Source: Oscillospiraceae bacterium (GTDB lineage: Bacteria > Bacillota > Clostridia > Oscillospirales > CAG-272). From it: 39,027 nt of DNA. The position numbers and the translations under genes are program-made. Position 1 is the stretch's first letter; every line of letters begins with the position of its first letter. Below the pieces are notes generated by a model that was not told the origin of the DNA, ran no database searches, and worked only from the letters and a program-made list of their open reading frames with translations. Below, piece after piece: positions 305 through 18,514 of this stretch. Location: positions 1-39,027 of the forward strand of contig SVRH01000005.1 in the NCBI GenBank assembly GCA_015064925.1, written 5' to 3'.

Positions 305-336
305 CTTGGCTAATAACCCTAATTTTGATACAAAAA

Positions 337-846
337 TTATTTACCTTTGAGTGTCGGAATTTTAGTTCCCTTGGCATTTACACCAAGGATAATAGCACCG
401 AGGAACAAAGCTCCGCCTATTATGGAGGTGCCATATTTAATAATGTTTCCTATGAATTCTTTGTTTTCGGTATCCTTGGCAGAAATCTTGTCCGCTACTA
501 AAATCATTTTATCGGTGATATCAGATCTTTCTTCGGGAGAGATGTCATCTTTTTTTAGTACTTCGCTTAAGCTACTAAGTATGAGTTTGTATGCCTCGAT
601 GGCTTCCTTTTGGCTTTCGCTGTTCTCTTTGAGTGCAGCGTCGCACATCGCATTTAACTGAACTACCATATTTGAAGCGAGTTCTGCATATGCCGGGAAT
701 TGATTTATTATGGCAATTGCCACATCTTTATCCATATTAGGAATCAAAGAGACAAATTCCATAATTTTATCTTTTGATAAATTTCTGAACGACTCAATAT
801 TCAGAGCTTTAAGTACTTGCTCCTGTGTAATAAGTTTCTGTGACAT
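337..846 (-). CDS. Hypothetical protein with C-terminal transmembrane segment; last gene of the TcmP operon
   Basis: 169-aa ORF; C-terminal hydrophobic stretch IIKYGTSIIGGALFLGAIILGV; 19-nt gap to the upstream rSAM gene. Confidence 0.7.
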   Translation of the reverse strand: MSQKLITQEQVLKALNIESFRNLSKDKIMEFVSLIPNMDKDVAIAIINQFPAYAELASNMVVQLNAMCDAALKENSESQKEAIEAYKLILSSLSEVLKKDDISPEERSDITDKMILVADKISAKDTENKEFIGNIIKYGTSIIGGALFLGAIILGVNAKGTKIPTLKGK

Positions 847-865
847 ATTTTCACCGTCCTTATTT

Positions 866-1633
866 TTATGTTTCTTCGGTTATAGTTCCGTCTTTGATAT
901 GGAATGCGATTCCGTGCCGTTGACAGAACGCCACTACTTCCGTTGCACACCGGTTATAAAAACTCTTGTGTTCTTTATACGCAGAAACATCTTTGCTATA
1001 GTTGGTTCTTCCGAAAATGATTTTATCGGCAAAAGACACAGTTTCTAGTATAGCAGACAAATCTTGCTCTATAAGGTTGGGAGTAGGATAAGGTTCTATG
1101 CTAACCCAAGTTTTGCATCCACGCTCGCTCAATGCTCGTAATGCTTGTATGCGCTCGGCATAAGGGGCGGCACCAGGCTCCATACGTTGTCTATATTCCT
1201 CATCTAAGGATATAAGTGTAATTCCATATTCATTCTCCATCGAGCAATCGGCAAGCTCAATTGGGAGAATGCCTTTCGTCAGTACTGTACATTTGATCCC
1301 CGAAGCATTGAGTTTATTTATGGCAGCAATACTCATTGTAGATATTTCTTCGTAGCCGTACATAAATGGGTCAGTCGTAAAACAAAGCTGAACCGACTTG
1401 ATTTTATCTTTTAAACGAGGTATTTCTTCATCCAATATCTCCAAGGTATTTGACACGATACGCGGTTCAAGCCAATCCTCATATGACGAAATCTCACCGA
1501 AACGTTTTTTCATCATATAGGCGTAACACGGATATTTACAACCGTGGGCGCAACCCAAGACGTGATTCATTGTATAATCGCCGTATTCCACTCCGGTTTT
1601 GTATAACATTGTTTTTCTTGTTATGCTTTTCAT
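866..1633 (-). CDS. Three-Cys-motif radical-SAM-like protein (Gp37/Gp68-like family, TcmP partner)
   Basis: GCAHGCKYPCYAY cysteine motif; ATG at 1633 preceded by GAGGTGGAACGG; start/stop overlap (ATGA) with the TcmP gene. Confidence 0.75.
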   Translation of the reverse strand: MKSITRKTMLYKTGVEYGDYTMNHVLGCAHGCKYPCYAYMMKKRFGEISSYEDWLEPRIVSNTLEILDEEIPRLKDKIKSVQLCFTTDPFMYGYEEISTMSIAAINKLNASGIKCTVLTKGILPIELADCSMENEYGITLISLDEEYRQRMEPGAAPYAERIQALRALSERGCKTWVSIEPYPTPNLIEQDLSAILETVSFADKIIFGRTNYSKDVSAYKEHKSFYNRCATEVVAFCQRHGIAFHIKDGTITEET

Positions 1634-2829
1634 CCGTTCCACCTCAATTCCGTGGTTTTACCCTTTTCGTCTGCAAAGAACGAGGAGGTGCGCCCTGTGT
1701 TTGTTTTGTCGGGAGTACGCCGAACTATGAGTTGTCCGCTTTTTTCCAAATCTTTGAATATTGCTTTCACAGTTTGAGTGCGACAAACAACACCGTAAGT
1801 ACTGTAAAAATCCGCCATAATTGGATTCATGCGCTTAAATGATGTGATGCCCGAAAGAAAGCCTGTTACCTTCTCCCGGATGTCTTCTTCGTCAATTGCT
1901 TGGTTTTCTACATTTTCTTCAAACAAGGACATTTGACCTCCGCGTTGAATGTCTTGCATAAACTCCCAACGTCCGAAAATGTTATCGACCATAAGCAACG
2001 CCCCATCGGCGTGATTGGTTGCGTGAATCATCCTATATTTAGGAACTTGTCCTTCTTTGATTCTTAAAGGCATATTCAGCACATAGGCATAACTTTGACG
2101 CATACGTCTGCAATATGCCTCGGCAAACTCTGCCTCTGCTTCGTAAGCGGTGATAGTACCTTTGCGCTTTTTCTCAATGATATCAACCCAATAATCTCCA
2201 CCGGCAATTTTATCGAGCGCAAGCTTGGATTTTTCGTCGGGAGATAATTGTGTACTGTCATACTCGACTAGGTCTTCCAAAATATCATCTTCAAACTTCA
2301 CGCCCAATACACGGCATCCTTCTCGGATGAATCCAAAAGAATTCATATTAATCAGCAACTCGATACTGTTGAATCCGTGAGTGGCAAAAGAATCAAACAA
2401 CGAATAATCGAGCGCCTTAATTCCATAAGGGTCAATATAAAGGAAAACATTGCAGCCGTTCTTGTTCTTCAAGATGCCTTCAATTTGCTCCTCATATTTA
2501 CCGGATATTATATTCACATCGGAATAATCTTTTAGATTTTCTGTGAGATCGTGAGCATAGTTCAAGTCGATAAAATAGGATTGGATATTGCTTTGCGTCA
2601 TTGTTGTCTGCCCCAAGCAATCCTCAATGGTGTGCAGAGCGATAAGTGGAGAACCCGGGTTGCCGTCTTCAAAGGCTCCTTTGCCAGCAAAACAATCAAC
2701 ATATACGATGGCTCGCCTTGTATGAAGTATTTTTTGGAAATAAGGTTTTAGGTAATGACCCAACAACGCATCCTTAACTTCTGACCACGGTTTCTTCACC
2801 TTGAAGAAATCATCATTTTTCTTTGCCAA
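1630..2829 (-). CDS. tcmP: Three-Cys-motif partner protein TcmP (methyltransferase-like)
   Basis: N-terminus VKKPWSEVKDALLGHYLKPYFQKIL, then VYVDCFAGKG (MTase motif I-like) and FLYIDPYG (motif IV-like); TTG start after AGGAGG. Confidence 0.75.
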   Translation of the reverse strand: MAKKNDDFFKVKKPWSEVKDALLGHYLKPYFQKILHTRRAIVYVDCFAGKGAFEDGNPGSPLIALHTIEDCLGQTTMTQSNIQSYFIDLNYAHDLTENLKDYSDVNIISGKYEEQIEGILKNKNGCNVFLYIDPYGIKALDYSLFDSFATHGFNSIELLINMNSFGFIREGCRVLGVKFEDDILEDLVEYDSTQLSPDEKSKLALDKIAGGDYWVDIIEKKRKGTITAYEAEAEFAEAYCRRMRQSYAYVLNMPLRIKEGQVPKYRMIHATNHADGALLMVDNIFGRWEFMQDIQRGGQMSLFEENVENQAIDEEDIREKVTGFLSGITSFKRMNPIMADFYSTYGVVCRTQTVKAIFKDLEKSGQLIVRRTPDKTNTGRTSSFFADEKGKTTELRWNG

Positions 2830-2846
2830 AGTGGTGCCTCCTATCG

Positions 2847-3287
2847 TTAGTTTTCGGACAAATTACCTTGGGTATTTTTAATTCTCAAAGTAACCTTAAA
2901 ATTCTCTTCCGGGAACAGCGAATCGTGTTCACGGCATCTTGCTGCCTCTGCTTTTATAACGCTTTCCACGGCGTGTTTGCCGTATTCGTCAAGACGTAGA
3001 TATGCCATAATCGTCTCGTAGAAACTCTCCTCGGCTTCCCATATGCCGAGTTGCTCTATATCCTCTTCCGTCATCTTAGGCGAAGAGGGGTCATTGGACG
3101 AGCCGAGAATATAATCTATCCTTCTATCAAATATGTCTGAAAGCGCATCGAGCGTTTCAAAGTTCGGCTCTCGTTTGCCGATCTCCCACATTGCAACCGT
3201 TCCCTTGGAAACGCCCAAAAGCTCCGCGAGCTGCACCTGGGTCATATTCTTTTCTTTTCGTAATTCTTTCAATCTGTGAGCAAACAT
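2847..3287 (-). CDS. XRE/CI-like helix-turn-helix transcriptional regulator
   Basis: MFAHRLKELRKEKNMTQVQLAELLGVSKGTVAMWEIGKREPNFETLDALSDIF; RBS GAGGTGATGAA. Confidence 0.9.
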   Translation of the reverse strand: MFAHRLKELRKEKNMTQVQLAELLGVSKGTVAMWEIGKREPNFETLDALSDIFDRRIDYILGSSNDPSSPKMTEEDIEQLGIWEAEESFYETIMAYLRLDEYGKHAVESVIKAEAARCREHDSLFPEENFKVTLRIKNTQGNLSEN

Positions 3288-3304
3288 TTCATCACCTCGC
3301 ATAA

Positions 3305-3340
3305 ATTATATCACGAATCGTGAGTATTGTCAAGTGTTTT
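3305..3340 (-). promoter_or_regulatory. Promoter of the HTH-TcmP operon with palindromic operator TCACGA-A-TCGTGA in its spacer
   Basis: Minus strand reads TTGACA-ATACTCACGATTCGTGA(17)-TATAAT; palindrome at 3311-3323. Confidence 0.8.
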
Positions 3341-3393
3341 CTAACACTTTGATGGTGCTTGCGATATTTTTTTGAAGAAAAAGATAACTTGCT

Positions 3394-3452
3394 GTGAGAT
3401 TTGCTATTGACAAAGATAACTAAATGTTGTATAATATACTTGTAAATCTCAC
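3394..3452 (+). promoter_or_regulatory. Rightward promoter TTGACA-N17-TATAAT flanked by GTGAGATTT/AAATCTCAC inverted repeats
   Basis: TTGACA 3407-3412, TATAAT 3430-3435; inverted repeats 3394-3402 and 3444-3452; direct repeat AAAGATAACT at 3380 and 3412. Confidence 0.8.
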
Positions 3453-3468
3453 GAAAGGAGAGAATTTT

Positions 3469-3657
3469 ATGAAAAACGAGACAAAACCGTCGATGATGAC
3501 CATCAAGCAGATAGCAAAAACGGGGCTGATGCCCGAAAATGCTCTCCGTCAACTTTTGAAGGAAGGCAAACTGCCTGTTGTCTATATCGGCAAAAAAGCT
3601 CTCGTCAACTATTCCAAGTTGTGCGAGCTTCTCAATCGGCTCGGCGATACCGAATGA
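3469..3657 (+). CDS. Small DNA-binding protein, excisionase/AlpA-like
   Basis: 62 aa MKNETKPSMMTIKQIAKTGLMPENALRQLLKEGKLPVVYIGKKALVNYSKLCELLNRL; RBS AAAGGAG. Confidence 0.7.
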   Translation: MKNETKPSMMTIKQIAKTGLMPENALRQLLKEGKLPVVYIGKKALVNYSKLCELLNRLGDTE

Positions 3658-3690
3658 CCGATAGAAAATTTAAAGAAAGGAGGAAACGGA

Positions 3691-5988
3691 ATGAAAACCC
3701 AATACGCCAATCTGCCGCCCCTGTTGAAGAAGGAAGGCTTGTTTTGCTTATGGCAATACGAAGTTCGTGACGGCAAAAAGACCAAGGTTCCGTATTGTGT
3801 CCGTGGTTATCGTGCTGATCCAGGTAACAAAAGTACATTTTCAAAGTTTGACCAAGTTATTAGCCTTGCCAACGGATATGACGGAATCGGCATCGGTGTT
3901 TTTGATGACATATGCGCCGTAGATATCGACCATTGTGTAGAAGACGGTGTGCTTTCAGAAATGGCTGACGATATCGTAAAAATGATGGACTCCTATACCG
4001 AGTATAGCCCCTCCGGTACGGGTGTGCGCATCTTTTTCAAGGCAAGCGGTCTGTCCTATGACAAAGAGCGTTACTACGTCAATAATCGCAAATTCGGTCT
4101 TGAAATCTATGTTTCCGGTTATACAAACAAATTTGTAACCGCTACCGGAAATGTACTTATCGACCGAGAAGTTGAAGACCGAACCGAGGCTCTTTTGCTC
4201 GTGCTTGAAAAGTATATGGTCAAGCCGACACAGTTATATACTCGCCGTGAGGATGTTCCCGGTAGCTTTCTTTCAGACGAGTCCGTAATTGCCAAGGCAA
4301 GTGCATCCAAGCAGGGTGAAAAGTTCTCGGCGCTTTGGTATGGGGACACATCTGCATACGGAAGTCAAAGCGAAGCCGATCTTGCCCTCTGCTCCATTCT
4401 TGCATTTTGGTGTGGCGGTGATATTGAGCAGATGGATAGACTCTTCCGCCAATCCGATCTTATGCGAGAAAAATGGGAGAGGGAGGATTATAGAATGAAC
4501 ACATTGAACCGAGCCGTGGCAATGACCAAGGAATTTTATAAGCCTCTCGGTCGAACCGCTCCGGCAGAGGATTTTAACGATATCTCTATTTTTCTTGAAG
4601 AAGCCACTCCTGAACGCAATGACCGTTACCCTTGGACGGACATTGGTGGCGGACGGCTGTTTGCGGATTGCTTTGAGAGCATTGCCAGGTATGTCCCCGA
4701 GAAGAAGAGCTGGTACTGTTACAAAGACGGCGTGTGGTCTCCCGACAGCGGTGCGCTCCGCACGATGGAGCTTTGTAAGGCGTTAGCGGATGCATTAATC
4801 GTATATGCGGTATCCATTCATGATGAACGCCAAAGACAAGAGTTTATGAAATACTGCACCAAATGGCAGACGCGACGTACGCGAGAAACGCTACTCAAAG
4901 ATGCCCAAGGCGTACACCCCATATCCCTCTCGGAATTTGATTGCGACCCGTATGCCTTCAACTGTAAGAACGGCACATTGCACCTTGATACGATGGAATT
5001 TACCGAACATCGCCCAGAAGACCGCTTGTCTAAGATCTCAAATGTGGCATATGACCCTTCCGCATATAGTTCTCGGTTTGAAAGCTTTGTATCTGAGATT
5101 ATGAGCGGAGATGTCGACAAAGCGAGATTTCTTCAAAAGTCTCTCGGTTACGGCATCAGCGGAGATACTCGCTACGAGTGTATGTTCATTATGTACGGAG
5201 CTACTACCCGTAACGGTAAAGGCACCTTATGTGAGAGCGTACTGAAGGTTCTCGGCAATTACGGTTGTACCGCAAGACCGGAAACTTTGAGTATCAACGC
5301 CAACAGCAACAGCCAGACCCCGAGCGAAGATATCGCAAGGCTTGCAGGGGTACGCTTTGCCAACATTTCCGAGCCTGGTAAGGGACTCCTTCTTAACGGA
5401 GCAAAGGTCAAAAATATGACGGGTAACGATACTATCAACGCTCGTTTCCTTCACGAAAACAGCTTTGACTTCGCTCCTCAATTCAAACTCTACATCAACA
5501 CCAACTACCTTCCCGTCATTAACGATATGACTCTTTTCAGCAGCGGACGTGTAGTCATTATTCCTTTTGAAAGGCACTTTGAAGAAGCCGAGCAAGACAA
5601 GACTTTGAAAACGGAATTCTCAAAGCCGGAAGTTCAAAGCGCAATCCTCAATTGGCTTGTAGGCGGCTATCGTATGCTGATGAAAGAAGGCTTGTCGCAA
5701 CCGCAAGCGGTAAAGGAAGCAACTGCTTCTTATGAACACGAAAGCGATAAGATTGCTATGTTTGCGGAGGACAATCTTATTGAGGACAAACGCTCCGAGG
5801 TTCGTACCGCCGAAGTCTATAGTCGATACAAGGAGTGGTGTATGGACAACGGACACCGTGCCGAAAGCATGAAGAACTTCAAGCAAGGACTCATGACACA
5901 AGGCTCGGTTGTCCGCAAGCGACCGAGGGGCGGTGGTAGCGAAACCACAATGCTCATCGGCTTCAAACTCGTCAGCGACTTCCTTTAA
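3691..5988 (+). CDS. Phage/plasmid PrimPol-SF3 helicase (P4-type primase, replication initiator)
   Basis: N-terminal AVDIDHC / YSPSGTGVRIF PrimPol-like motifs; C-terminal MYGATTRNGKGTLCESVL Walker A and NTNYLPV. Confidence 0.85.
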   Translation: MKTQYANLPPLLKKEGLFCLWQYEVRDGKKTKVPYCVRGYRADPGNKSTFSKFDQVISLANGYDGIGIGVFDDICAVDIDHCVEDGVLSEMADDIVKMMDSYTEYSPSGTGVRIFFKASGLSYDKERYYVNNRKFGLEIYVSGYTNKFVTATGNVLIDREVEDRTEALLLVLEKYMVKPTQLYTRREDVPGSFLSDESVIAKASASKQGEKFSALWYGDTSAYGSQSEADLALCSILAFWCGGDIEQMDRLFRQSDLMREKWEREDYRMNTLNRAVAMTKEFYKPLGRTAPAEDFNDISIFLEEATPERNDRYPWTDIGGGRLFADCFESIARYVPEKKSWYCYKDGVWSPDSGALRTMELCKALADALIVYAVSIHDERQRQEFMKYCTKWQTRRTRETLLKDAQGVHPISLSEFDCDPYAFNCKNGTLHLDTMEFTEHRPEDRLSKISNVAYDPSAYSSRFESFVSEIMSGDVDKARFLQKSLGYGISGDTRYECMFIMYGATTRNGKGTLCESVLKVLGNYGCTARPETLSINANSNSQTPSEDIARLAGVRFANISEPGKGLLLNGAKVKNMTGNDTINARFLHENSFDFAPQFKLYINTNYLPVINDMTLFSSGRVVIIPFERHFEEAEQDKTLKTEFSKPEVQSAILNWLVGGYRMLMKEGLSQPQAVKEATASYEHESDKIAMFAEDNLIEDKRSEVRTAEVYSRYKEWCMDNGHRAESMKNFKQGLMTQGSVVRKRPRGGGSETTMLIGFKLVSDFL

Positions 5989-5993
5989 CACAA

Positions 5994-6082
5994 TGTCGCA
6001 ACTTGTCGCAGGTTCTATAGGTTATTTTCAAAAAACGCTCTTTTATAGAAATGACATATTTTACTTGCGACAATCTGCGACA
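5994..6082. other. Candidate replication origin: paired TGTCGCA iterons flanking an AT-rich core
   Basis: TGTCGCA at 5994 and 6004; inverted TGCGACA at 6066 and 6076; 10-bp spacing on each side; AT-rich ~50 bp between; immediately 3' of the helicase gene. Confidence 0.6.
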
Positions 6083-6236
6083 GACGTCCTTTACAAGACA
6101 ATTGTGACCTAAGGGGCGGGTCAAATCTGTGGGCGAAAAATAGTGTCCAACGGGTGGGCAGCCCCGCGTACAAAAAGAAATATTCAAAGGGGGTATTACC
6201 CCTAAAACAAACAAATCAAAAAATGGAGGATTTTTT

Positions 6237-6518
6237 ATGAAATTTAGACCTATTTACAACAAAAAATTCCGTGTTACCGCATCTGATAGAGAGGCATTTA
6301 CCACTCAGGACTATACCTGTATGTTCATTTTGCAGACGATGAAGGGACAGCCCGTAGCGGTTTCCGTGTGCAACGATCTTGATTGCCACATTTGGAGGGT
6401 GCAGTACGGCTTCTCCACCGTCTACTTTGGTGAGTACGCCGAAGCGATGGATTTTTGCCGTGAGCATTTCTGCGACCTTACCGGAAACAAGCTGAAGAAG
6501 GCAAAGGAGAGAAAATAA
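6237..6518 (+). CDS. Hypothetical small protein
   Basis: 93-aa ORF preceded by TGGAGG; tail-to-head with next ORF. Confidence 0.65.
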   Translation: MKFRPIYNKKFRVTASDREAFTTQDYTCMFILQTMKGQPVAVSVCNDLDCHIWRVQYGFSTVYFGEYAEAMDFCREHFCDLTGNKLKKAKERK

Positions 6519-6808
6519 TGTTTCGGCTCTCAAATTATCTTCAGAAGCATTTGAAAGGTCATATCGATTTCGATACATTCGTGCTGATCGCTGTTATCCC
6601 TCGCAAAAAGAAGGATACCGTGGTTCTCTTGGCACCGAAGTATGAAACCGAATACACCTATTTCGCACTTCAAAACGGCAAAAATTACACATATCATTCT
6701 TGCCTCGACACCCTGCTGACGGCAGCACATAAATGCGGTATCAGCCGTTTCAAGCTGTGGCGTTGTCGCAAACGCTATGAAAATTTCAAAAGGAGAGGTC
6801 TTATATGA
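6518..6808 (+). CDS. Hypothetical small basic protein
   Basis: 96-aa ORF; 1-nt overlap with upstream and 4-nt overlap with downstream ORF. Confidence 0.65.
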   Translation: MFRLSNYLQKHLKGHIDFDTFVLIAVIPRKKKDTVVLLAPKYETEYTYFALQNGKNYTYHSCLDTLLTAAHKCGISRFKLWRCRKRYENFKRRGLI

Positions 6809-7086
6809 AAAAATATTATCCGCTCATTGATATGGACACAACCGGGACAATAAAAGTGCCGATGTTTCCTGCCTACGATTACAAAACAGCGTTGAGAACA
6901 AGCAATTTCGCACTCGGAGAAGTCTCTTCCCACCATTACCGCTTGATTGCCGTAACCCCTCACGCTATGAGAGATTATCTCTCTTATGACATCCGTTGTC
7001 CCAAGTGCGGTGCAACGATGGATATGACCGAACCGCACGAAGGTGAGTATGTTCTTGCAGAGTATACTTGCGAAAACTGTCAATAA
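6805..7086 (+). CDS. Hypothetical small protein with zinc-ribbon-like CPKC...CENC
   Basis: 93-aa ORF; IRCPKCGATMDM...EYTCENCQ. Confidence 0.65.
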   Translation: MKKYYPLIDMDTTGTIKVPMFPAYDYKTALRTSNFALGEVSSHHYRLIAVTPHAMRDYLSYDIRCPKCGATMDMTEPHEGEYVLAEYTCENCQ

Positions 7087-7106
7087 ATTTTTGGAGGTAT
7101 AAAACT

Positions 7107-8045
7107 ATGACTATTGACGCTATTAAAGAAAGAGATTACGCCGTGGCTATGCCCGAATACGATTATGCATTTTGGAATGCCGTAAAGCGTAAGCCCCACA
7201 ATGCAAAAGAGCTTGAAAAGGCTAGCAGTAACGAAGCCGGTACATATCTTCCTCTTCAGGCAAATTCCAAGATGAACGCTGCCCTCAAGAGAGAAAGCGT
7301 GTTCCGCTCACTTGCTACCATTGCTTATATGAGAGAACCCGGCGGTATCGTTCTTGCAAAGTATTGCGATTCGGAGAGTTGTTGGGTCCCCGAACACGGA
7401 ATGTATACTTTTTCGGAGAACCCCGGAGAATTCACCGAATACAACATCAAGGCACACAAGCTCGGAACGCTTCTCAAATATGACGAGGCATTTATGGTAG
7501 ATGTCGGTCTTAATATGGAAAACCACCTGATTGACAACATTGCCAAGAGCTTCGGTGCTATGGAAGATGCCGCCTATGTAAACGGAAATGGTGATATTCA
7601 GCCTACCGGAATTCTCCACAGCACTCGCGGAGCACAGGTCGGCACAACCACCGCGAATCTCACCTATGAGGACGTGGTCAAGCTCTACTTCTCGGTCAAG
7701 CCTGAATACCGCAAGAGAGGTGTTTGGATGATGAACGATGAGACCGCTTATTATCTCCGCACCCTCAAAGACGAAGGCGGTAACTACATTTGGAATCACG
7801 CCAACGATACCATCCTCGGCAAGCGTGTATACATCTGCAACGATATGCCGAGCATCGGTGCCGGAAACAAGCCTATCGCATTCGGTGACTTTTCCTACTA
7901 TTGGATTATTATCCGTGACGAGGTTAGCGTAAAGGTTCTCAAGGAGCTTTATTACGATGATATGCAGATCGGCTATATTGCTCGTGAGTATCTCGATGCA
8001 AAGCTCATCCGCCCCGAGGCAATCAAGGTCATTCAAATGAGCTAA
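7107..8045 (+). CDS. Phage major capsid protein, HK97 fold
   Basis: MEDAAYVNGNGDIQPTGIL, YRKRGVWMMNDETAYYLRTLKDEGGNYIWN, LGKRVYICNDMP, IAFGDFSYYWIIIRDEVSVKVLKELYYDDMQIGYIAREYLDAKLIRPEA; RBS TTTGGAGG, ATG at 7107. Confidence 0.88.
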   Translation: MTIDAIKERDYAVAMPEYDYAFWNAVKRKPHNAKELEKASSNEAGTYLPLQANSKMNAALKRESVFRSLATIAYMREPGGIVLAKYCDSESCWVPEHGMYTFSENPGEFTEYNIKAHKLGTLLKYDEAFMVDVGLNMENHLIDNIAKSFGAMEDAAYVNGNGDIQPTGILHSTRGAQVGTTTANLTYEDVVKLYFSVKPEYRKRGVWMMNDETAYYLRTLKDEGGNYIWNHANDTILGKRVYICNDMPSIGAGNKPIAFGDFSYYWIIIRDEVSVKVLKELYYDDMQIGYIAREYLDAKLIRPEAIKVIQMS

Positions 8046-8053
8046 AAAGCACA

Positions 8054-8094
8054 TCACCGCAAGGGTATATATTCCCTGTATGCTCTTGCGGTGA
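8054..8094. terminator. Hairpin downstream of capsid gene
   Basis: TCACCGCAAG ... CTTGCGGTGA, 10-bp stem; no clear T-tract. Confidence 0.5.
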
Positions 8095-8219
8095 CATTGT
8101 CATAACCCTAAAATTGATACAAAATACAGGCGCAATCTTTGTGTACTATATAATCGCAATAACCGTTGCAATTTAAGGGATATAGAGGTAATATGTATGC
8201 TACCAAAGGAGGTGAATAT

Positions 8220-9524
8220 ATGGAACGAATCATACGGCAAGTGCAATTCCCGATGCAATCGCAGCCGAAGGCAAAAAGGGTTGTAGCTTATGCCCGTGTG
8301 TCCACGGGAAAGGATGCAATGCTGCATTCACTTTCCGCACAAATCAGCTACTACAGTGATTTGATTCAAAAGCACAGCGGTTGGCAATATTGCGGAGTAT
8401 ATTCCGATGAAGCTACCACGGGAACGAAAGGTAACCGAAAAGGCTTTCAGGATATGATAAAACAATGCCAATCTGGAAACATCGACCTCATTATTACAAA
8501 GTCGATTTCACGCTTTGCCCGTAATACTGTTACGCTTTTGCAAACGGTGCGAGAGTTGAAGGAACTTGGCGTTGACGTTTATTTTGAAGAGCAGAACATC
8601 CATACGATGAGCGCAGACGGCGAATTGATGATGACCATCCTTGCATCGTATGCCCAAGAAGAAAGCCTATCCGCAAGCGAAAATCAAAAATGGCGTGTAC
8701 GGAAAGCGTTTGAAAACGGAGAGCTTATGAACCTACGCACGATGTTCGGTTATTCCATTTCCAAAAGTAGCATCACCATACACCCTGAAAATGCAGAAAT
8801 CGTAAGGGAGATATTTCGCAGATTCATAGATGGCGATAGTATGGGCGGTATTGCAAATAGCCTCAACGAGAGAGGCGTAATAGGAGCTTTAGGCGGTGTT
8901 TGGGATGCTCAACGCATACGGCAGATACTATCCAATGAAAAATACACGGGGAATGCACTTCTTCAGAAGCATTACCGAAACAACCACCTGGAAAAGAAGA
9001 AAACCAAGAATCAAGGTGAATTGCCGTTATATTATGCGGAAGGAACTCACGAAGCCATCATCGACCAAGCAACCTTCGACCGAGCCGGAAAAAGGCTACG
9101 AGAATTGGAGTACGAAAACTCAAAGCGCAAAAGACCTCAAAGCTCACCCTTTACAAGTCGTATTCGGTGTGGCATATGTGGTGCTAATTATAAGCATTGT
9201 GTGAACCTCGGCAAGCATTTTTGGCAATGCTCCACCTATATGAAAAAGGGCAAGCAGTTCTGTCACGCCAAGCGCATATCGGATGAAGTTATACATAGGC
9301 TTACGGCAGAGGTGCTTGGTACGGAAGAATACGATGTGGGTGTGCTTGACAGCCGTATAACGCTTATACAAGCGGAGGAAAACCACACCATAGTTTTCCG
9401 CACCGCCGAAGGAGAAGAAATCGTTAAACAATGGGAATTGCCCTCACGCTCTGAAAGTTGGACAGCGGAGATGCGAGAGGCAGCAAGCGAAAGAAAAAAG
9501 AAAGCGAGGAAAAGTAATGGCTAG
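8220..9524 (+). CDS. Large serine recombinase 1
   Basis: VVAYARVSTGKD catalytic motif, KSISRFARNT, CGICGANYKHC zinc ribbon; RBS AAAGGAGGTG. Confidence 0.92.
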   Translation: MERIIRQVQFPMQSQPKAKRVVAYARVSTGKDAMLHSLSAQISYYSDLIQKHSGWQYCGVYSDEATTGTKGNRKGFQDMIKQCQSGNIDLIITKSISRFARNTVTLLQTVRELKELGVDVYFEEQNIHTMSADGELMMTILASYAQEESLSASENQKWRVRKAFENGELMNLRTMFGYSISKSSITIHPENAEIVREIFRRFIDGDSMGGIANSLNERGVIGALGGVWDAQRIRQILSNEKYTGNALLQKHYRNNHLEKKKTKNQGELPLYYAEGTHEAIIDQATFDRAGKRLRELEYENSKRKRPQSSPFTSRIRCGICGANYKHCVNLGKHFWQCSTYMKKGKQFCHAKRISDEVIHRLTAEVLGTEEYDVGVLDSRITLIQAEENHTIVFRTAEGEEIVKQWELPSRSESWTAEMREAASERKKKARKSNG

Positions 9525-11097
9525 AGCGGTTACGGTCATACCACCTACTATAAATCCATTAACAAAGATGCCTACCGCCACAGTAAGCAAACGGCGTGTT
9601 GCAGGGTATGCTCGTGTGTCTACCGATAGCGACGAACAGTTCACCTCTTACGAGGCGCAAATCGATTATTACACTCAATTCATAATGCGCCATAGTGATT
9701 GGGAGTTCGTTAAGGTATATACGGACGAAGGTATCTCGGGCACGAACACCAAGCGCAGAGAGGGTTTCAATCAAATGATAACCGATGCTCTCGACGGCAA
9801 AATAGACCTGATCGTTACAAAGTCGGTCAGCAGATTCGCACGAAACACTGTAGATAGCCTTGTGACTGTAAGAAAGCTCAAAGATAAGGGTGTAGAGGTT
9901 TTCTTTGAAAAGGAGAACATTTATACGCTCGATAGCAAGGGAGAACTTCTCATAACGATTATGTCCTCTCTTGCCCAGGAGGAGAGCCGTTCCATTTCCG
10001 AGAATGTGACTTGGGGACAGCGCAAGCGCTTTGCAGACGGCAAGGTGATGCTTCCGTACAAACGATTCCTTGGCTACCGAAAAGGCGCAGATGGCTTTCC
10101 CGAGATTGTTCCCGAGGAGGCAGAAATCATAAAGCGGATATACCGCCGTTATATGAGTGGGCAGACCACTTGTGCCATTGCTGCGGAATTGACCGCAGAC
10201 GGAATCCCTACGCCTGGAGGCAAGGCAACCTGGCAAGCGAGTACAGTTGAGAGCATTCTTACGAACGAGAAATATAAGGGGGATGCACTCCTTCAGAAAT
10301 GCTTCACAACGGATTTTCTTACGAAAAAGAAGAAGGTCAACGAGGGCGAAGTTCCGCAATACTATGTTGAGCATAGCCACGAAGCTATTATTCCGCCGAA
10401 CGAGTGGGAAGATGTTCAGACCGAGATACAACGCAGAAAGCGAATAGGTCGCAAGTATAGCGGAAACGGCATCTTTGCTTCTCGCATTGTATGCGCCGAG
10501 TGCGGTTCGTTCTTCGGTGCCAAGGTGTGGCATTCCAACAACGAAAAATACCGCAAGACCATATGGCGGTGCAACCATAAATTCGCCGGAGAGCATCGTT
10601 GCCAAACGCCGTTTGTGGAAGAAAAGACGCTCAAAGATAAATTCGTTACGGCATTTAATACCTTATGGGATACGAGAGCGGAGATAATCGAGAGCCTTCA
10701 TTTTGCCCAAATGTTACTCACGGATAGCACCGCTATTGATACGGAGCTTGAAGAATTGACCGCCGAGCTTGAAATCATCGTTGAACTAACTCGCAAGTGC
10801 ATCGAGGAGAATTCCACCTTGGCACAAGATCAGAACGAATACACCGCTCGATACAACGGCTATGTGGAGCGGTACGAAAGTACCCAAGCAAGAATTCAAG
10901 AGCTTCAAAAGCAGAAAGCCGAACGGCAAGAAAAGTACGATGGCATTGAATCCTTTATCACCACTTTTGCAAGCCAAAACAAGTCATTGACGGAATTTGA
11001 TGAAGGAATATGGTGTCTGCTCTTGGAGACGGTGACGGTGCATACAAGCGGTACATTGGAGTTTCGGTTTAAGGATGGAAGCGCTTTTACAATATAA
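9517..11097 (+). CDS. Large serine recombinase 2
   Basis: RVAGYARVSTDSDEQ, KSVSRFARNT, CAECGSFFGAKV zinc ribbon, C-terminal coiled-coil region; 8-nt overlap with recombinase 1. Confidence 0.93.
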   Translation: MARAVTVIPPTINPLTKMPTATVSKRRVAGYARVSTDSDEQFTSYEAQIDYYTQFIMRHSDWEFVKVYTDEGISGTNTKRREGFNQMITDALDGKIDLIVTKSVSRFARNTVDSLVTVRKLKDKGVEVFFEKENIYTLDSKGELLITIMSSLAQEESRSISENVTWGQRKRFADGKVMLPYKRFLGYRKGADGFPEIVPEEAEIIKRIYRRYMSGQTTCAIAAELTADGIPTPGGKATWQASTVESILTNEKYKGDALLQKCFTTDFLTKKKKVNEGEVPQYYVEHSHEAIIPPNEWEDVQTEIQRRKRIGRKYSGNGIFASRIVCAECGSFFGAKVWHSNNEKYRKTIWRCNHKFAGEHRCQTPFVEEKTLKDKFVTAFNTLWDTRAEIIESLHFAQMLLTDSTAIDTELEELTAELEIIVELTRKCIEENSTLAQDQNEYTARYNGYVERYESTQARIQELQKQKAERQEKYDGIESFITTFASQNKSLTEFDEGIWCLLLETVTVHTSGTLEFRFKDGSAFTI

Positions 11098-11101
11098 AAA
11101 T

Positions 11102-11134
11102 ACAGCAGATAGGAACCAATAACCTATCTGCTGT
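11102..11134. terminator. Bidirectional terminator between convergent recombinase 2 and C5-MTase genes
   Basis: ACAGCAGATAGG...CCTATCTGCTGT perfect 12-bp stem. Confidence 0.75.
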
Positions 11135-11140
11135 TGTTTG

Positions 11141-12544
11141 TTAGTCTATAGGATCGAACAGGCTTAATTGTGTGCTGTCAATAGTTCTTGTGCGTTTGGG
11201 CTTTTCTTCTGCTACCGAAGAACTAAATCTACCGCGTTTTTGAACTCTAGAGCGTTTTTCAATGTCTTCTTCACTCCACTCGGAGGAAATGGAAAGCAAA
11301 ACCTCTTTGAGGCGTTCATTTATTGAAAGATTGCGCTCACGACTACGGCGTACAATACCAAAGCAACCTGTGGGCGATATGTAAATATCCTCAGGAGCTT
11401 CCGGAGAAACGATATCCATCATATTTCCAAATACACTTTCCTCGGGGGTTGCTGTACAATTGATTCTTACGCCGAATCCAATGTTCGCAATATCTTTGCC
11501 GAAATCAAAAAAACACCCTTCATCAGTTTTCCATTTGATAAAATAGCAACTTCCATCACCATCATCGATGATACTGGCTGTTTCATGCTGGGCATTTACT
11601 AGCCGTTCACCAATCCATCGAACAACCGGAACTGCCCATGAGTTGCCTATTGCTTGATATCGATTCGTTTTCTTTGCACCAGGCAAGTCGGTATAGTTGT
11701 CTGGAAATCCCATCAACCTTTCACATTCCAAGGGGGACAATCTTCTAATGCGCTTGTCTTGTACAACAAACAAAGAACCGTTATTTGCGGCTGCATTTCC
11801 GTTCCATTTTGTACCGTATGCGGAATACAAGCAATCGGTGTATTCTCTAAAGACTTCAAACTCGTGCCCATCCTTTACAAAGCGCAAAGGGTATTTAGGA
11901 TATTCCAATGCAAGATGCGTGTGTTTTTCAAACAAGATATTTTCGGGATAAAAATCCGTACCGCCTGCTAATAAATACAAACGGCGTCTCTGCTGGGGCA
12001 ACCCAAAATATTTCGCATCCAGTACACGCCAAGCAACATTTCTCTTGGGGCCTCTAACAATTCCGGCATTGGGCCATTTTCCGCATTCAATAACCTCGCT
12101 CAACCCAGCCAACGAGGACACGAGACAACCAAAAGCATTTGTTTTGTCGGTTAGGACACCCTCAACATTTTCCCAAAAAACCATGGTACGATTTTTATTT
12201 TGTTGTATGCGGATTTCGTCATTAGCTTCTATGATATCAACAAATCTTAATGTGAGATTTCCTCGATCATCATTTAAGCCGTTTTTCCAACCTGCAAGTG
12301 AAAATGCTTGGCAAGGAGTTCCTCCGCAAATCATATCCGGTGCAGAGATTGTATGTTGCAAAATCAAATCCGGTATAAGATTCATATCTCCCAGGTTCTT
12401 TATATTGGGATATTTTTTAGATAGTACAGTTGCCGGGAAAGCAGCTATCTCGGAAAACCATTGAAACTCAAAATCAAGCGGTTTCCAAGCGACTGATGCC
12501 GCCTCTATACCAGAGCAAATACTACCAACAGTTTTTATTGGCAT
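11141..12544 (-). CDS. DNA (cytosine-5) methyltransferase
   Basis: GSICSGIEAASVAW, GGTPCQAFSLAGW, FWENVEG, PQQRRRLYL, RLSPLECERLMGFPDNYT, YQAIGNSWAVPVV motifs. Confidence 0.93.
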   Translation of the reverse strand: MPIKTVGSICSGIEAASVAWKPLDFEFQWFSEIAAFPATVLSKKYPNIKNLGDMNLIPDLILQHTISAPDMICGGTPCQAFSLAGWKNGLNDDRGNLTLRFVDIIEANDEIRIQQNKNRTMVFWENVEGVLTDKTNAFGCLVSSLAGLSEVIECGKWPNAGIVRGPKRNVAWRVLDAKYFGLPQQRRRLYLLAGGTDFYPENILFEKHTHLALEYPKYPLRFVKDGHEFEVFREYTDCLYSAYGTKWNGNAAANNGSLFVVQDKRIRRLSPLECERLMGFPDNYTDLPGAKKTNRYQAIGNSWAVPVVRWIGERLVNAQHETASIIDDGDGSCYFIKWKTDEGCFFDFGKDIANIGFGVRINCTATPEESVFGNMMDIVSPEAPEDIYISPTGCFGIVRRSRERNLSINERLKEVLLSISSEWSEEDIEKRSRVQKRGRFSSSVAEEKPKRTRTIDSTQLSLFDPID

Positions 12545-12649
12545 AATTATCTCTCCAAGAGTTTTTCTTATATATTCGCTCTTTTTTTGCTTAAAGTCAA
12601 GTCAAATTCTGAAATTATTGCTTATTCTCCACAATGCACAAAAGAGCTT

Positions 12650-13582
12650 TTATTCTTCGTCTTTAAAATGCTCGAGTCGATATAACAGTTGTTTTCTCCA
12701 TTCGGCAATATCGTACCAACCACAACCGACACAACCGCATTCAGCTTTCTTTCCTTTTTGAGGAATGCTTGTGTCCCAATCCTCCGAGCCGGAATAATAA
12801 AATTTAATTCCAAACGGATATCCGCGCTTTCCCGTTTGAAAACAGGTTCGACACACCTCACGTTTTTGCTGATTACGTTGGTTAGTCAATAACTGAAATT
12901 TTTTACGAATTTCTTCGTCCGTCATCGAATCAAGATTTTCACTCTTAGTTTCATCATCCCAACGGATTTCAGAAAATTTGTGATCAGGCAAACAATGAGC
13001 ATTTGCGGTATCTTCGTATACATCGACACCACCCAAAACCTTGATGATTCTTTTTCTCAAAGCAGGAGACCACGTTTCGTAGCCATTTCCTTCAAGGCTG
13101 CCACGCTCAATAGGCAATAAAATAAGGTGCGTTTTATTGGCTTTGCAGTTAGGACAATAGTGTTTAGTGTCTGTTGCGATTGTATAGCCAAACTCTTTGA
13201 GGTCTTGAATTCTTCTTGCCCAGTTCGGATTTTGGGGAAGTGTACATTTTACGCACTGCCAACCGCCACGAATCAAACTATCATAGAAAGCCTTTGTGGT
13301 ATCTGCATTGGGTTTTTCTGCCGTCCAAAAAGCGTCTTGCTTTTTCTTCCAAGCGGTAAAATTTTCGGGGCGCATTTGCTCATATACGGCATTCAGGTGT
13401 TGAGTAACATCATCATCGGTTTTTAGTGATACACCCGTCCTTCTATATTCGACAGGTACCCAACCATCCCATACAAGTTCACCGTATGTAAATTGGACAT
13501 GAAGATATTCTTCGGATGCTTTAGAGTGTAGTTTTCGATTCTTATCTACAATTCTGATGTTTTCATTTAAAACGATTGCCAT
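12650..13582 (-). CDS. Putative restriction endonuclease (HNH-like, Cys-rich) paired with the C5-MTase
   Basis: Upstream of and co-directional with the MTase; WQCVKC...YCPNC, LPDHKFSEIRW...LTNQRNQQKREVCRTC; ATG at 13582 after GGAGGTGACG. Confidence 0.6.
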   Translation of the reverse strand: MAIVLNENIRIVDKNRKLHSKASEEYLHVQFTYGELVWDGWVPVEYRRTGVSLKTDDDVTQHLNAVYEQMRPENFTAWKKKQDAFWTAEKPNADTTKAFYDSLIRGGWQCVKCTLPQNPNWARRIQDLKEFGYTIATDTKHYCPNCKANKTHLILLPIERGSLEGNGYETWSPALRKRIIKVLGGVDVYEDTANAHCLPDHKFSEIRWDDETKSENLDSMTDEEIRKKFQLLTNQRNQQKREVCRTCFQTGKRGYPFGIKFYYSGSEDWDTSIPQKGKKAECGCVGCGWYDIAEWRKQLLYRLEHFKDEE

Positions 13583-13782
13583 ATCGTCACCTCCATCGAC
13601 TATAACTTCAAGGAACAAAATTTCATAATATTAAGATAATAATTAATTATATCACAACTCAAGAGTTTTTTCTATACCTTTTTGTAAAAAATCCTGATAA
13701 TCATGTTGTTTCGTTCACAAAAAGTTATCTGGACTATTTCCGCACCTTGTGGTATAGTGTTGTGCTACAAGGAGGTGCGCTT

Positions 13783-14058
13783 ATGAAAAGTATACTTGAA
13801 GAACTATGGTATGGCAATGTTTGCCCCAACACCGGATGCCGAGAAGCAACGAAAGAGGCAAAGGAACTGATGGGGTATATTGCCGATCACCATGATAACC
13901 TACAGGCAACGCTTACGGAGAAACAAAAGGATATCCTTGAAAAGTTCGATGATTGCTACGCCGAGCTGACGGATATAAACGAGCGTGAAATATTCGTGTA
14001 TGCGTTTCGGCTAGGAGCGAGGATTGCCATTGAAGTTATGAGCCTCGACATTGAATAA
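13783..14058 (+). CDS. Small DUF6809-like protein of Firmicutes mobile elements
   Basis: MKSILEELWYGNVCPNTGCREATKEAKELMGYIADH...; RBS AAGGAGG. Confidence 0.55.
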   Translation: MKSILEELWYGNVCPNTGCREATKEAKELMGYIADHHDNLQATLTEKQKDILEKFDDCYAELTDINEREIFVYAFRLGARIAIEVMSLDIE

Positions 14059-14094
14059 GCAAAAAAGGGGTGCAACGGATGCACCTCTTTTGCT
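14058..14094. terminator. Terminator-like hairpin
   Basis: GCAAAAAAGGGGTGCAacggaTGCACCTCTTTTGC. Confidence 0.65.
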
Positions 14095-14110
14095 CTCTTA
14101 TGATAAAAAC

Positions 14111-14151
14111 AAGAACCATAACTCGATACATTGTATCAAAATTATGGTTCT
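14111..14151 (-). terminator. Palindromic tRNA-Ser terminator that also contains the recurrent element-end motif
   Basis: AAGAACCATAA ... TTATGGTTCTT stem followed (minus strand) by GTTTTTAT; inner GATACA-T-TGTATC. Confidence 0.65.
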
Positions 14152-14155
14152 TATT

Positions 14156-14248
14156 TGGCGGAGTAGGAGAGATTTGAACTCTCGCGCCGTTATTCACGAC
14201 CTACACCCTTAGCAGGGGCGCCTCTTCGGCCAACTTGAGTACTACTCC
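14156..14248 (-). tRNA. tRNA-Ser (anticodon GCT)
   Basis: GGAGTAG...CTACTCCGCCA acceptor, CGCCC-CTGCTAA-GGGTG anticodon arm, long variable arm, GAGAG-TTCAAAT-CTCTC T arm, encoded CCA. Confidence 0.95.
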
Positions 14249-15822: not shown

Positions 15823-17511
15823 CTATGATGCTAACCACATATCAACACAAGCTTGAATACCACAACGCCAATTATTCTCATCAACTGCTTTTTCACATAA
15901 TTTCAAAGCGCAATCGAGAAAATGACGAATGTCAGTCGGTGTAGGTTGAGTTTTATAACTGTAGGAATTCTCAACAAGTTTCATAAACTGATCTAATTCA
16001 AGAGGTATTATCTTAGATTTTCCACCATAAAGAGCAATTGACAGATGGTTTAGTACGTAGAAATGAGCCAATGTTGCTGCATTAATTGTCGGTGCAATAA
16101 ATAAGCAATAAGTATCTTTGCCCGATTTTTTCTTTAACTGACCATAATGACGTGCGACGGGTTCTCCTTCAGCTTCATACTGACGCTGTCCGGACTGTAA
16201 TGTAACTTCAACAGCCAAAGAAAAATCATCATAATCACACTCAATATCCGGCATATTTCCAGATGCGGTGGATAGAGGCTGACCTATATCATCAAATTTG
16301 AAGTTGCCCTTGATATTGCCGCCATCAAGCATAGTCATTGCTCTCCAAGTATTATACTCAAACATAAGCGGAGCATCATAGTATTCATCCGAAACGATTT
16401 CGTTAAATGTATCAATAATTTCTGAATATAGAGCGTATGACTTGATTTCAGCAACTTGTTCGTGAATAACATTCTCTTTGTGTTGAGCGACAATGTCATC
16501 TCGCAAATCTTTTAATGCCTCAATATCGTAGTTCGCTAAATCACGTCTTGTAAACTCACTCATACGAAGAATAACATCTATAATGTTTTCGACATTATCT
16601 GTATATAGTTCGGGAGTGGCGGCATTAAATAAATGTGCTTTATAACTTTCCTCATCATCCACAAAAACAGGATTTCGATTAACATTAGTAAGGATAAATT
16701 CGACATCTCGCTTTTTGTCATTGAAAATTGAAATTGTCCTACTTTTGTGTGCAATGGATACAAGTCCGGTAAATCTTAAATATCTAAAACAAGCATCAGC
16801 ATAATCACGCATATTGCCTTTTTGAGTTTTCACAAAGGTATTTATGCTGGCATCTCTTGTTTCTCTTGTCCTTGTTCTACCTTCGGCAATTCTGTCATTA
16901 TGAATTTCTAACACGGCATTTGCCCATACATCATTTACAAATCGTTTGTACTGTCCACGATGCAACTCTTTATCTTTTCTGAAATTCAAGATTTTATCTT
17001 TAACTTCTTCGTACTTGTGATAGTCTGTGATTTGAACAGCAAAGATTTTCAACTCGTCAAAGGTTAAATATTCAAGATCATAGATTAATCGCAATACTTC
17101 CAAATATGGACGCACAAAAAATGTACCGCTTATTTTGACGTTCTCTGTGTGATAAGGCGAAGGCAACTGAAATTTGAGCAGTTGGCGCAGGAAAATCTCT
17201 TGTGGTCTTTTCCCCGAAATTAAAGCACGACCAGCATCAGTTAGTGCAATATTCGGTTTCAAGTCAACAAAACCTAGTGCTTTCGGCGCACGATTTATTC
17301 TGTCACGTGCACTAAATGCTTTATCAGAGGGAGAGCCTGTTCCCTCGAAAAAGCTACTTTCCGCAAGTTCATCAATAAATTGTTCTTGTGTAATTCTATT
17401 CCACGGTTTTCCTTCAAATTTATCACAAAGCAATCCAATTTCAGGGATCATCTTTGCAGGAGTTCGTGGTGAAGTTGTAAAAAACAAAACTTTATTGTCC
17501 AGTCTTGCCAT
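15823..17511 (-). CDS. AlwI-family type IIS restriction endonuclease
   Basis: N-terminus FFTTSPRTPAKMIPEIGLL; catalytic-like PDIECDYDDFSLAVEVTL; coupled to a Dam-type MTase; ATG 17511 after GAGGTGATAGGT. Confidence 0.8.
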   Translation of the reverse strand: MARLDNKVLFFTTSPRTPAKMIPEIGLLCDKFEGKPWNRITQEQFIDELAESSFFEGTGSPSDKAFSARDRINRAPKALGFVDLKPNIALTDAGRALISGKRPQEIFLRQLLKFQLPSPYHTENVKISGTFFVRPYLEVLRLIYDLEYLTFDELKIFAVQITDYHKYEEVKDKILNFRKDKELHRGQYKRFVNDVWANAVLEIHNDRIAEGRTRTRETRDASINTFVKTQKGNMRDYADACFRYLRFTGLVSIAHKSRTISIFNDKKRDVEFILTNVNRNPVFVDDEESYKAHLFNAATPELYTDNVENIIDVILRMSEFTRRDLANYDIEALKDLRDDIVAQHKENVIHEQVAEIKSYALYSEIIDTFNEIVSDEYYDAPLMFEYNTWRAMTMLDGGNIKGNFKFDDIGQPLSTASGNMPDIECDYDDFSLAVEVTLQSGQRQYEAEGEPVARHYGQLKKKSGKDTYCLFIAPTINAATLAHFYVLNHLSIALYGGKSKIIPLELDQFMKLVENSYSYKTQPTPTDIRHFLDCALKLCEKAVDENNWRCGIQACVDMWLAS

Positions 17512-17521
17512 ACCTATCACC

Positions 17522-18370
17522 TCAATAATTTTTTACTACGATATGCATTTTATCGTTTTTGAAACGATTTCTAATGTTTACTGCATAGTTTTTGTAATAC
17601 TCATCAAAAATGAAACCACCATATAATTCTTCTGTGAGAGGAGTTTTGCCAATAATCATCAACGCCCTACAAGGAAGATTTCTAAAATCAGCCGCTAAAC
17701 GTCTATGTTCCGCTTCATCAAAACCGTTCATCATATCGATGTTTCCATAGTCGTTGAAGACACAATCGTATGGCGGATCTAAAAAGATAAAATCATCTTC
17801 TTGTGCCATATCAAAAATGCGGCTATAATCACAGTTAAATAATTCTGCGCCTTGCAAAAGCTCACTATGTTGTTGTGTTACAAGTCGAGTGTTAAGATTT
17901 GGGTATCTGCCGAAAGGAACATTGTAATCACCGTTATTATTGTATCTAATCATTCCCGAATAGGCAGTCTTATTGATAAAGAAATACAAAACTCCATCTA
18001 AATATGTATCATCCGGATGATTAAATAGTTCTCTCATACGATAATAAAGTTCCTCATTTGCATTAGGAACTCTCTCATCAGGAGTCAAGGCTTTCAATCT
18101 CTTATATTCTGCCTGATTAAGTTCATACACACGCTGAAGGTCATCCAACTGCTGACGCATAAGAGGATACTGGTCTCGCAACTGAGAATAAAAGGTCATC
18201 AATCGCTCATTTGCATCGTTGATAATAGCGTTTTCAGGTTCAAGATGGAAATAAACTGCACCACCGCCAAAAAAAGGCTCGATATATCTGTTAAAGTCTT
18301 CTGGTATGTATTGAAGAAAACGGGGGATTTCACGAGATTTTCCGCCACGATATTTTAAAACTGGATTCAT
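17522..18370 (-). CDS. Dam-family DNA adenine (N6) methyltransferase
   Basis: MNPVLKYRGGKSREIPRFLQYIP, YIEPFFGGGAVYF, FIFLDPPYDCVF; ATG at 18370. Confidence 0.93.
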   Translation of the reverse strand: MNPVLKYRGGKSREIPRFLQYIPEDFNRYIEPFFGGGAVYFHLEPENAIINDANERLMTFYSQLRDQYPLMRQQLDDLQRVYELNQAEYKRLKALTPDERVPNANEELYYRMRELFNHPDDTYLDGVLYFFINKTAYSGMIRYNNNGDYNVPFGRYPNLNTRLVTQQHSELLQGAELFNCDYSRIFDMAQEDDFIFLDPPYDCVFNDYGNIDMMNGFDEAEHRRLAADFRNLPCRALMIIGKTPLTEELYGGFIFDEYYKNYAVNIRNRFKNDKMHIVVKNY

Positions 18371-18412
18371 AGGTTCAACCTCGCTTTCAACTAGACATAA
18401 TTGCACAAAAAT

Positions 18413-18441
18413 ATTATACCATACAACTCGAGATTTTTCAA
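18413..18441 (-). promoter_or_regulatory. Promoter of the AlwI-family R-M operon
   Basis: Minus strand TTGAAA-N17-TATAAT. Confidence 0.65.
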
Positions 18442-18480
18442 TGGATTTTCTGTGAAATTTGATTCTTGCTAAATGAAACA

Positions 18481-18514
18481 AAGGGAGACAGCATCCTTAC
18501 GGAGTGTCTCCCTT
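18481..18514 (-). terminator. Terminator-like hairpin after PFOR
   Basis: AAGGGAGACA...TGTCTCCCTT. Confidence 0.7.

Follow-up and report, generated by a model that had tools for sequence, protein, structure and literature searches.

A capsid homologue without a delta domain in a candidate family of cos-type phage satellites of Bacillota

An integrated element and its capsid gene

The window, a 39,027-nucleotide stretch of contig SVRH01000005.1 from an Oscillospiraceae bacterium (assembly GCA_015064925.1), contains an integrated element whose parts are listed in Table 1. The terminal inverted repeats of the element end in ..CCNTAATTTTGATACAA on both sides, and the element lies between a terminator hairpin (270–305) on its left and the 3' end of tRNA-Ser on its right. 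In the related genome G001 (L020), a hairpin directly adjoins TTGGCGGAG of the tRNA-Ser, and two related elements, L002 and L003 (the latter ~14.2 kb), have the same ends at other sites. Searches of viral contigs and of the source genome for the junction of an excised circle (attP) returned nothing. Just outside the element, the left flank carries a Gut-1 RNA (RF01706, E = 1e-11) at 196–270 on the minus strand, amid short inverted repeats. Just past the tRNA-Ser, an AlwI-type restriction endonuclease and a D12-class adenine methyltransferase (15823–18481) form a second restriction-modification (R-M) island at the same site.

Table 1. Parts of the integrated element and its integration target, with positions in the window.
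Feature	Position	Strand	Evidence or remark
Whole integrated element	307–14161		~13.85 kb; borders inferred, ± a few bases
Left end, terminal inverted repeat	306–333	+	GGCTAATAACCCTAATTTTGATACAA; identical in L002/L003
169-aa cargo protein	337–846	-	No confident family
Radical SAM/DUF5131-like cargo protein	866–1642	-	PF04055, E = 8e-14
Three-Cys-motif partner TcmP-like cargo protein	1630–2829	-	TIGR04474, E = 1e-31; PADLOC candidate PDC-M30A, E = 1e-17
XRE-type repressor-like regulator, divergent from replication genes	2847–3302	-	PF01381, E = 9e-18
Small excisionase/DNA-binding-like protein	3424–3657	+	PHROG DNA-binding/excisionase, weak, E = 3e-4 to 9e-4
P4-family primase-helicase (D5_N)	3691–5988	+	PF08706, E = 3e-26; TIGR01613, E = 1e-67; phrog_1829, E = 3e-154
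Candidate cos site	6159–6206	+	48-bp matrix, 45.2 bits; dyad GGGGGTATTACCCC at 6189–6202
Small cassette protein, 93 aa	6237–6518	+	Order upstream of capsid conserved; dN/dS ~0.1
Small conserved cassette protein, 96 aa	6518–6808	+	
Small zinc-ribbon protein, 93 aa	6805–7086	+	Invariant CPxC...C in alignment
Delta-less HK97-type capsid protein	7107–8045	+	PF05065, TIGR01554, AlphaFold2
Large serine recombinase 1	8220–9524	+	PF00239/PF07508
Large serine recombinase 2	9517–11097	+	PF00239/PF07508
C5-cytosine DNA methyltransferase, R-M cargo	11141–12544	-	PF00145, E = 4e-40; PADLOC MTase_II
Type II restriction enzyme-like protein, R-M cargo	12650–13618	-	PF05315 (ICEA), E = 6.5e-6; PADLOC REase_II, E = 1e-31
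DUF6809 protein at right end	13783–14058	+	PF20648, E = 4e-25; 96% conserved in L002/L003
Right end, terminal inverted repeat	14118–14161	-	Abuts tRNA-Ser 3' end
tRNA-Ser(GCT), integration target	14156–14248	-	ARAGORN; empty-site-like arrangement in L020

The capsid gene begins with an ATG at 7107, preceded by a GGAGG ribosome-binding site, and encodes a protein of 312 amino acids. The Pfam model Phage_capsid (PF05065) matches residues 51–310 (E = 1.9e-58), and the NCBIfam model TIGR01554 matches with E = 1.2e-65; both scores lie above the curated cut-offs (198.5 versus 24.2 bits and 222 versus 27.5 bits, respectively). The AlphaFold2 model adopts the HK97 fold (pLDDT 88, pTM 0.84), and the protein thus belongs to the HK97-fold phage major capsid family, confirming the initial annotation of this gene as an orphan HK97-fold capsid. 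That annotation also judged that the gene looks intact, and named frameshifts or relaxed selection as evidence against its reading. The reading frame is complete, and between copies that are 81–91% identical the gene has a dN/dS of 0.09–0.15, which indicates that the protein is kept by purifying selection.

The N-terminal delta/scaffold domain of its nearest phage relatives is absent, as had been proposed. The match to TIGR01554 covers model positions 85–385 of 385, and because it begins at position 85 the first ~84 positions, which correspond to this domain, are missing. In alignments, full phage capsid proteins carry ~90 extra N-terminal residues that end where the window protein begins. An alternative upstream start that would restore the domain was ruled out, since the frames are closed; many relatives have a stop codon in frame, 13–60 codons ahead of the conserved FW motif, which makes a hidden delta domain impossible. 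Genes for portal, protease, TerL, and TerS were all absent from the window element in scans with Pfam, PHROGs, and NCBIfam, in agreement with the reported lack of a neighboring portal and protease.

The delta-less clade and its elements

Loci drawn from GTDB genomes, IMG/VR, and phage and plasmid collections yielded about 45 delta-less relatives of 299–319 amino acids, hosted by gut and soil Bacillota (Clostridia, Bacilli, and Erysipelotrichia). The delta-less capsids included in a tree fall on one side of a branch (SH-aLRT 99) that separates them from 23 delta-bearing phage capsids. With head genes as queries, tblastn detected neither TerL nor portal nor protease next to any of the delta-less capsids. 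A full head module beside homologs had been named as evidence against an orphan capsid, and only the delta-bearing relatives of the sister clade sit in such TerL-portal-protease-capsid modules.

A five-residue deletion in the tip loop of the A-domain (WNHA-----NDTILG) is found in all 37 satellite capsids tested and in none of the 23 phage capsids; the RcGTA and cfPICI EcCI2 capsids also keep these residues. In an alignment in which the numbering of the phage phi12 capsid protein (CP) reproduces published residues exactly, the deletion aligns with A-loop position T323 of phi12 CP, the site of a mutation that gives resistance to Ccm-driven size redirection (PMC8569155). The phi12 CP is itself also short at the A-loop, so the deletion is a marker of the clade and not proof of altered geometry.

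The satellites share the gene order regulator – (xis) – P4-type primase – (small genes) – capsid – (TnpW) – serine recombinase(s), and a primase and a serine recombinase are present wherever contig sequence suffices. The elements examined carry R-M or other defense cargo, the R-M systems being of type I, II, IIG, or III and swappable. In L005, the three small genes and the capsid gene are 77–89% identical to those of the window while the primase and recombinase are only ~25% alike, so the capsid cassette is exchanged and kept as a module and selected as a unit; L012 and L004 show other breakpoints. The small genes are inessential to the role of the capsid, since elements of the Bacilli/Clostridia type mostly lack them between primase and capsid. 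The zinc-ribbon protein, related copies of which are present twice in some elements (L013, L053), gave a confident AlphaFold2 model (pLDDT 90.7) and no match to it in the PDB. Two decaying copies were noted: the capsid gene of L104 has an in-frame stop, and the second G650 copy (L116/L129) carries IS21-like and IS256-like insertions.

Related elements insert into rho-independent terminators, the insertion lying inside the stem-loop in L114, L115, L120, L121, L051, L071, L072, and L128. The right ends of one terminator-inserting subfamily share GGAATTATAAATCCCTATCTGAC(C/A)GCTCC and the left ends GAAGCGTTCACTTAGGGATT. Across about ten elements, lengths range from 12.6 to 14.5 kb and cluster at 13.3–13.4 kb despite unrelated cargo. 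End-to-end lengths are 13,383 bp with a type I R-M system, 13,363 bp with type IIG, and 13,375 and 13,329 bp with type III. An element of a remote lineage (G362), its left end assigned by partial match, measures 13,368 bp, and the second G650 copy measures ~13.28 kb after subtraction of its two IS insertions. The spread is widened by L071 (12,601 bp) and L128 (14.5 kb), and the length for G408 is ~14.55 kb. Over their left ~7.3 kb, almost no DNA can be aligned among L114, L115, and L124, and totals that are nearly equal in spite of this suggest a physical constraint, for example that of a capsid.

A site shared with the HNH-TerS gap of phages

When elements were compared with prophages residing in the same genomes, common 16-mers emerged next to the capsid gene; these belong to a conserved site of ~48 bp, roughly ACGCGtAAAAAAACGCGgtTTCAAACGGGGTATtaACCCC. 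A 48-bp matrix was trained on 17 distinct satellite sites, with phages excluded from training. It scores 45.2 bits at 6159–6206 of the window, and its best score on the other strand is 0.4. Scores of at least 19.9 bits were obtained in 35 of 45 satellite loci; the other ten have no strong site, and some of these are truncated contigs or divergent. In phages, the matrix finds one strong match each, at 37–50 bits in six of eight (NatCom_34063, phi1605, and the prophages of G567, G408, G570, and G256), with other matches at 13 bits or below; in NatCom_11578 and phi1207.3 the match has the same position but is weaker (16 and 11 bits). This position is the gap between the HNH endonuclease (PF01844) and the small terminase (Terminase_4, PF05119), the flanking genes having been checked. 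When the 19-base core alone was scanned over 2.9 million viral contigs, 74 sites were found in 73 contigs. HNH or TerS lies beside 68 of them, and where both genes are visible the site falls exactly between them (60/60); the remaining six lie beside a capsid gene, five of these also beside a primase.

Cos phages classically have their cos between HNH and TerS, and by position and conservation the site is a candidate cos. In satellites it lies on either side of the capsid gene and in either orientation. This variation, together with the HNH-TerS position in phages, led to a promoter or operator being dropped as the main reading.

As an integrative element with its own replication and integration genes, incomplete virion genes, and a site in common with the HNH/TerS gap of helper-type phages, the window element conforms to the general description of a phage satellite. 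The suggestion that the protein is a satellite capsid gains strong support from the conserved architecture, the shared site, and the uniform length. The 88%-complete source MAG contains no portal gene (PF04860) that would mark a resident helper. For co-residence of satellite capsids with phage capsids of the same family, the counts are 4 of 10 versus 40 of 381 genomes (Fisher p = 0.018), which is weak support only, because the phage-type capsid of G650 has no TerL or portal beside it.

Role of the capsid homolog and relation to known satellites

SaPIbov5 is an element of ~14 kb that carries the cos site of its helper and, when enlarged, shrinks back to size on passage; its protein Ccm, a capsid homolog, sits in the pentamers and turns the heads of the helper into small ones (PMC5052747, PMC8569155). 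From the sequence features above and by analogy with SaPIbov5, the element is probably a cos-type phage satellite whose capsid homolog builds small heads. Upon infection or induction of a helper, the element would excise and replicate with its own primase. The helper terminase (TerS/TerL, with HNH) would recognize its cos and cut unit-length molecules of ~13.4–14 kb, the packaged DNA ending at GGGGTATTACCCC, and the helper would supply portal, protease, and tail. The satellite capsid protein would be incorporated as the shell assembles, most likely in specific places, for example the pentamers that Ccm occupies, and would force a head that fits the element and is too small for the genome of the helper. 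The R-M genes would shield the host from other phages. Size redirection through co-assembly with a helper, raised by the initial annotation, is thus retained as the most likely mechanism, by analogy with Ccm. What chiefly sets the protein apart from Ccm, and makes this mechanism most uncertain, is its lack of a delta domain; Ccm keeps one of 87 amino acids, which its authors think matters for assembly (PMC8569155).

It is conceivable, if unlikely, that the delta-less protein makes the whole small shell alone, with portal, terminase, and tail from the helper, much as in a cfPICI reduced to one head gene that needs neither delta domain nor protease cleavage. The protein equals a pre-matured capsid protein in which all elements of the shell core are conserved, the three small conserved proteins of some element families might act as scaffold, and element length is uniform. 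Against this, there is no universal scaffold, given the elements without small proteins, and the elements encode neither protease nor portal. Furthermore, Ccm alone forms no shells (PMC8569155), which favors a mosaic shell. That a single gene without any scaffold yields a head of ~13.4-kb capacity, which a borrowed portal and terminase would fill from the shared cos site, is likewise improbable; if true, such a shell would be a naturally minimized HK97 shell, intermediate between encapsulins and phage capsids in its design, and would underlie a satellite family spanning Bacillota.

There is a slight chance that the protein serves interference only: as part of a defense island, it would act as a decoy or dominant-negative subunit and poison the assembly of helper heads, and the element would spread by other means. 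The defense cargo and the loss of the assembly (delta) domain from a capsid homolog fit this role, which however leaves the cos-position site beside the capsid gene and the uniform length unexplained. Slimmer still is the likelihood that the shared site is a signal for regulation or replication to which a phage protein binds, in which case satellite status would stand and packaging would follow another route. The site adjoins primase and capsid genes in satellites and contains dyads, which are also typical of operators and origins, yet its strict confinement to the HNH-TerS gap in phages, its varying orientation in satellites, and its place in L151 (16–5525), where the order is primase, site, small terminase, and two serine recombinases, speak against such a signal. 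L151 itself represents a satellite type with TerS in place of the capsid gene.

A cellular role as an encapsulin-like compartment, entertained initially, or as a domesticated shell is now hardly credible. The delta domain is absent, as in encapsulins, and a Foldseek search with the capsid model, for which RcGTA is closest, also aligns encapsulins (TM ~0.60). Nevertheless, phage capsid models alone match the protein and an encapsulin family HMM does not, its best PDB sequence matches are the RcGTA and cf-PICI EcCI2 capsids, no cargo-enzyme gene lies beside it, and the gene travels on mobile elements with primase, recombinase, and cos-like site. A decaying prophage remnant, suggested by the few broken copies, is dismissed in view of strong purifying selection, an architecture conserved across Bacillota, and recurrent cassette exchange.

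The preferred reading, a cos-type satellite with a head-forming capsid homolog, places the family beside several known systems. As in SaPIbov5-type cos SaPIs, an island of ~14 kb appears to combine a helper cos with one capsid homolog as head gene, here judged from sequence, and a size limit on packaging is likewise suggested by the element lengths. Unlike SaPIbov5, with its delta-bearing Ccm, the window family has serine recombinases, a P4-family primase, R-M instead of virulence cargo, and a predicted helper of the Heliusvirales type; its capsid lineage is distant, the window protein being 15% identical to phi12 CP, the protein used for this comparison. Divergence of a repressor from an xis-primase block is a PICI feature (PMC6092414), and the window has it (2847–3302, minus strand, against 3424–5988, plus strand). 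In PICIs, however, int lies left of the repressor and is transcribed with it, while the serine recombinases here lie on the other side (8220–11097). cfPICIs similarly encode their own HK97-fold capsid (EcCI2, PDB 9gyi, E = 1e-33), of which the EcCI2 protein has a longer N-terminal region and a longer loop than the window protein; they encode all proteins for making and packaging small capsids, whereas the window element and its relatives have the capsid gene only, with no portal, protease, or terminase. The family would therefore act like a cos SaPI yet, on the features tested, falls outside the PICI and cfPICI definitions, because the type and place of the integrase differ and these head genes are missing.

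P4-like satellites share the P4-family primase, a cos site, and defense cargo. They differ in that psu, sid, and delta families were absent among the element proteins in Pfam and PHROGs scans, a capsid homolog replaces the external scaffold, the hosts are Bacillota, and the recombinases are serine recombinases. The nearest full-length capsids, at 35–38% identity, belong to Heliusvirales-type phages (NatCom_34063, phi1605, phi1207.3), which have the same cos-position site but, unlike the window element, complete head, tail, and terminase modules and a delta-bearing capsid of ~400 amino acids. The closest solved structure by sequence and fold is the RcGTA major capsid (6tb9), which differs in belonging to an alphaproteobacterial GTA cluster, in having the N-terminal region present in its sequence, and in its longer loop. 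A literature search, with most subscription papers and bioRxiv preprints outside its scope, returned SaPIbov5/Ccm, PmCI172, and cfPICIs and no prior description of the family.

These comparisons suggest that the strategy of SaPIbov5, a cos site with a capsid homolog, known from one staphylococcal subfamily, also underlies a large and separate satellite family of Bacillota, for which the shared packaging site predicts Heliusvirales-type helpers. Consistent loss of the delta domain turns its role, and whether a delta-less subunit can enter or build a shell, into a testable question. The diverse R-M cargo points to a possible route by which defense genes spread in phage particles.

Related arrangements occur beyond the clade. 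In a Heliusvirales-type prophage of G408 (L135, 8537–10568), a satellite-like TnpW and serine recombinase lie directly beside the cos-like site and TerS, in the place expected for HNH, and this prophage may be a phage-satellite recombinant. In a second lineage (L173, L169, L207, L213), the order primase, cos-like site, capsid recurs with full-length, delta-bearing capsids of ~430–440 amino acids (~23% identity), and in L173 two similar copies stand in tandem, their sites (867 and 8377) separated by 7,510 bp.
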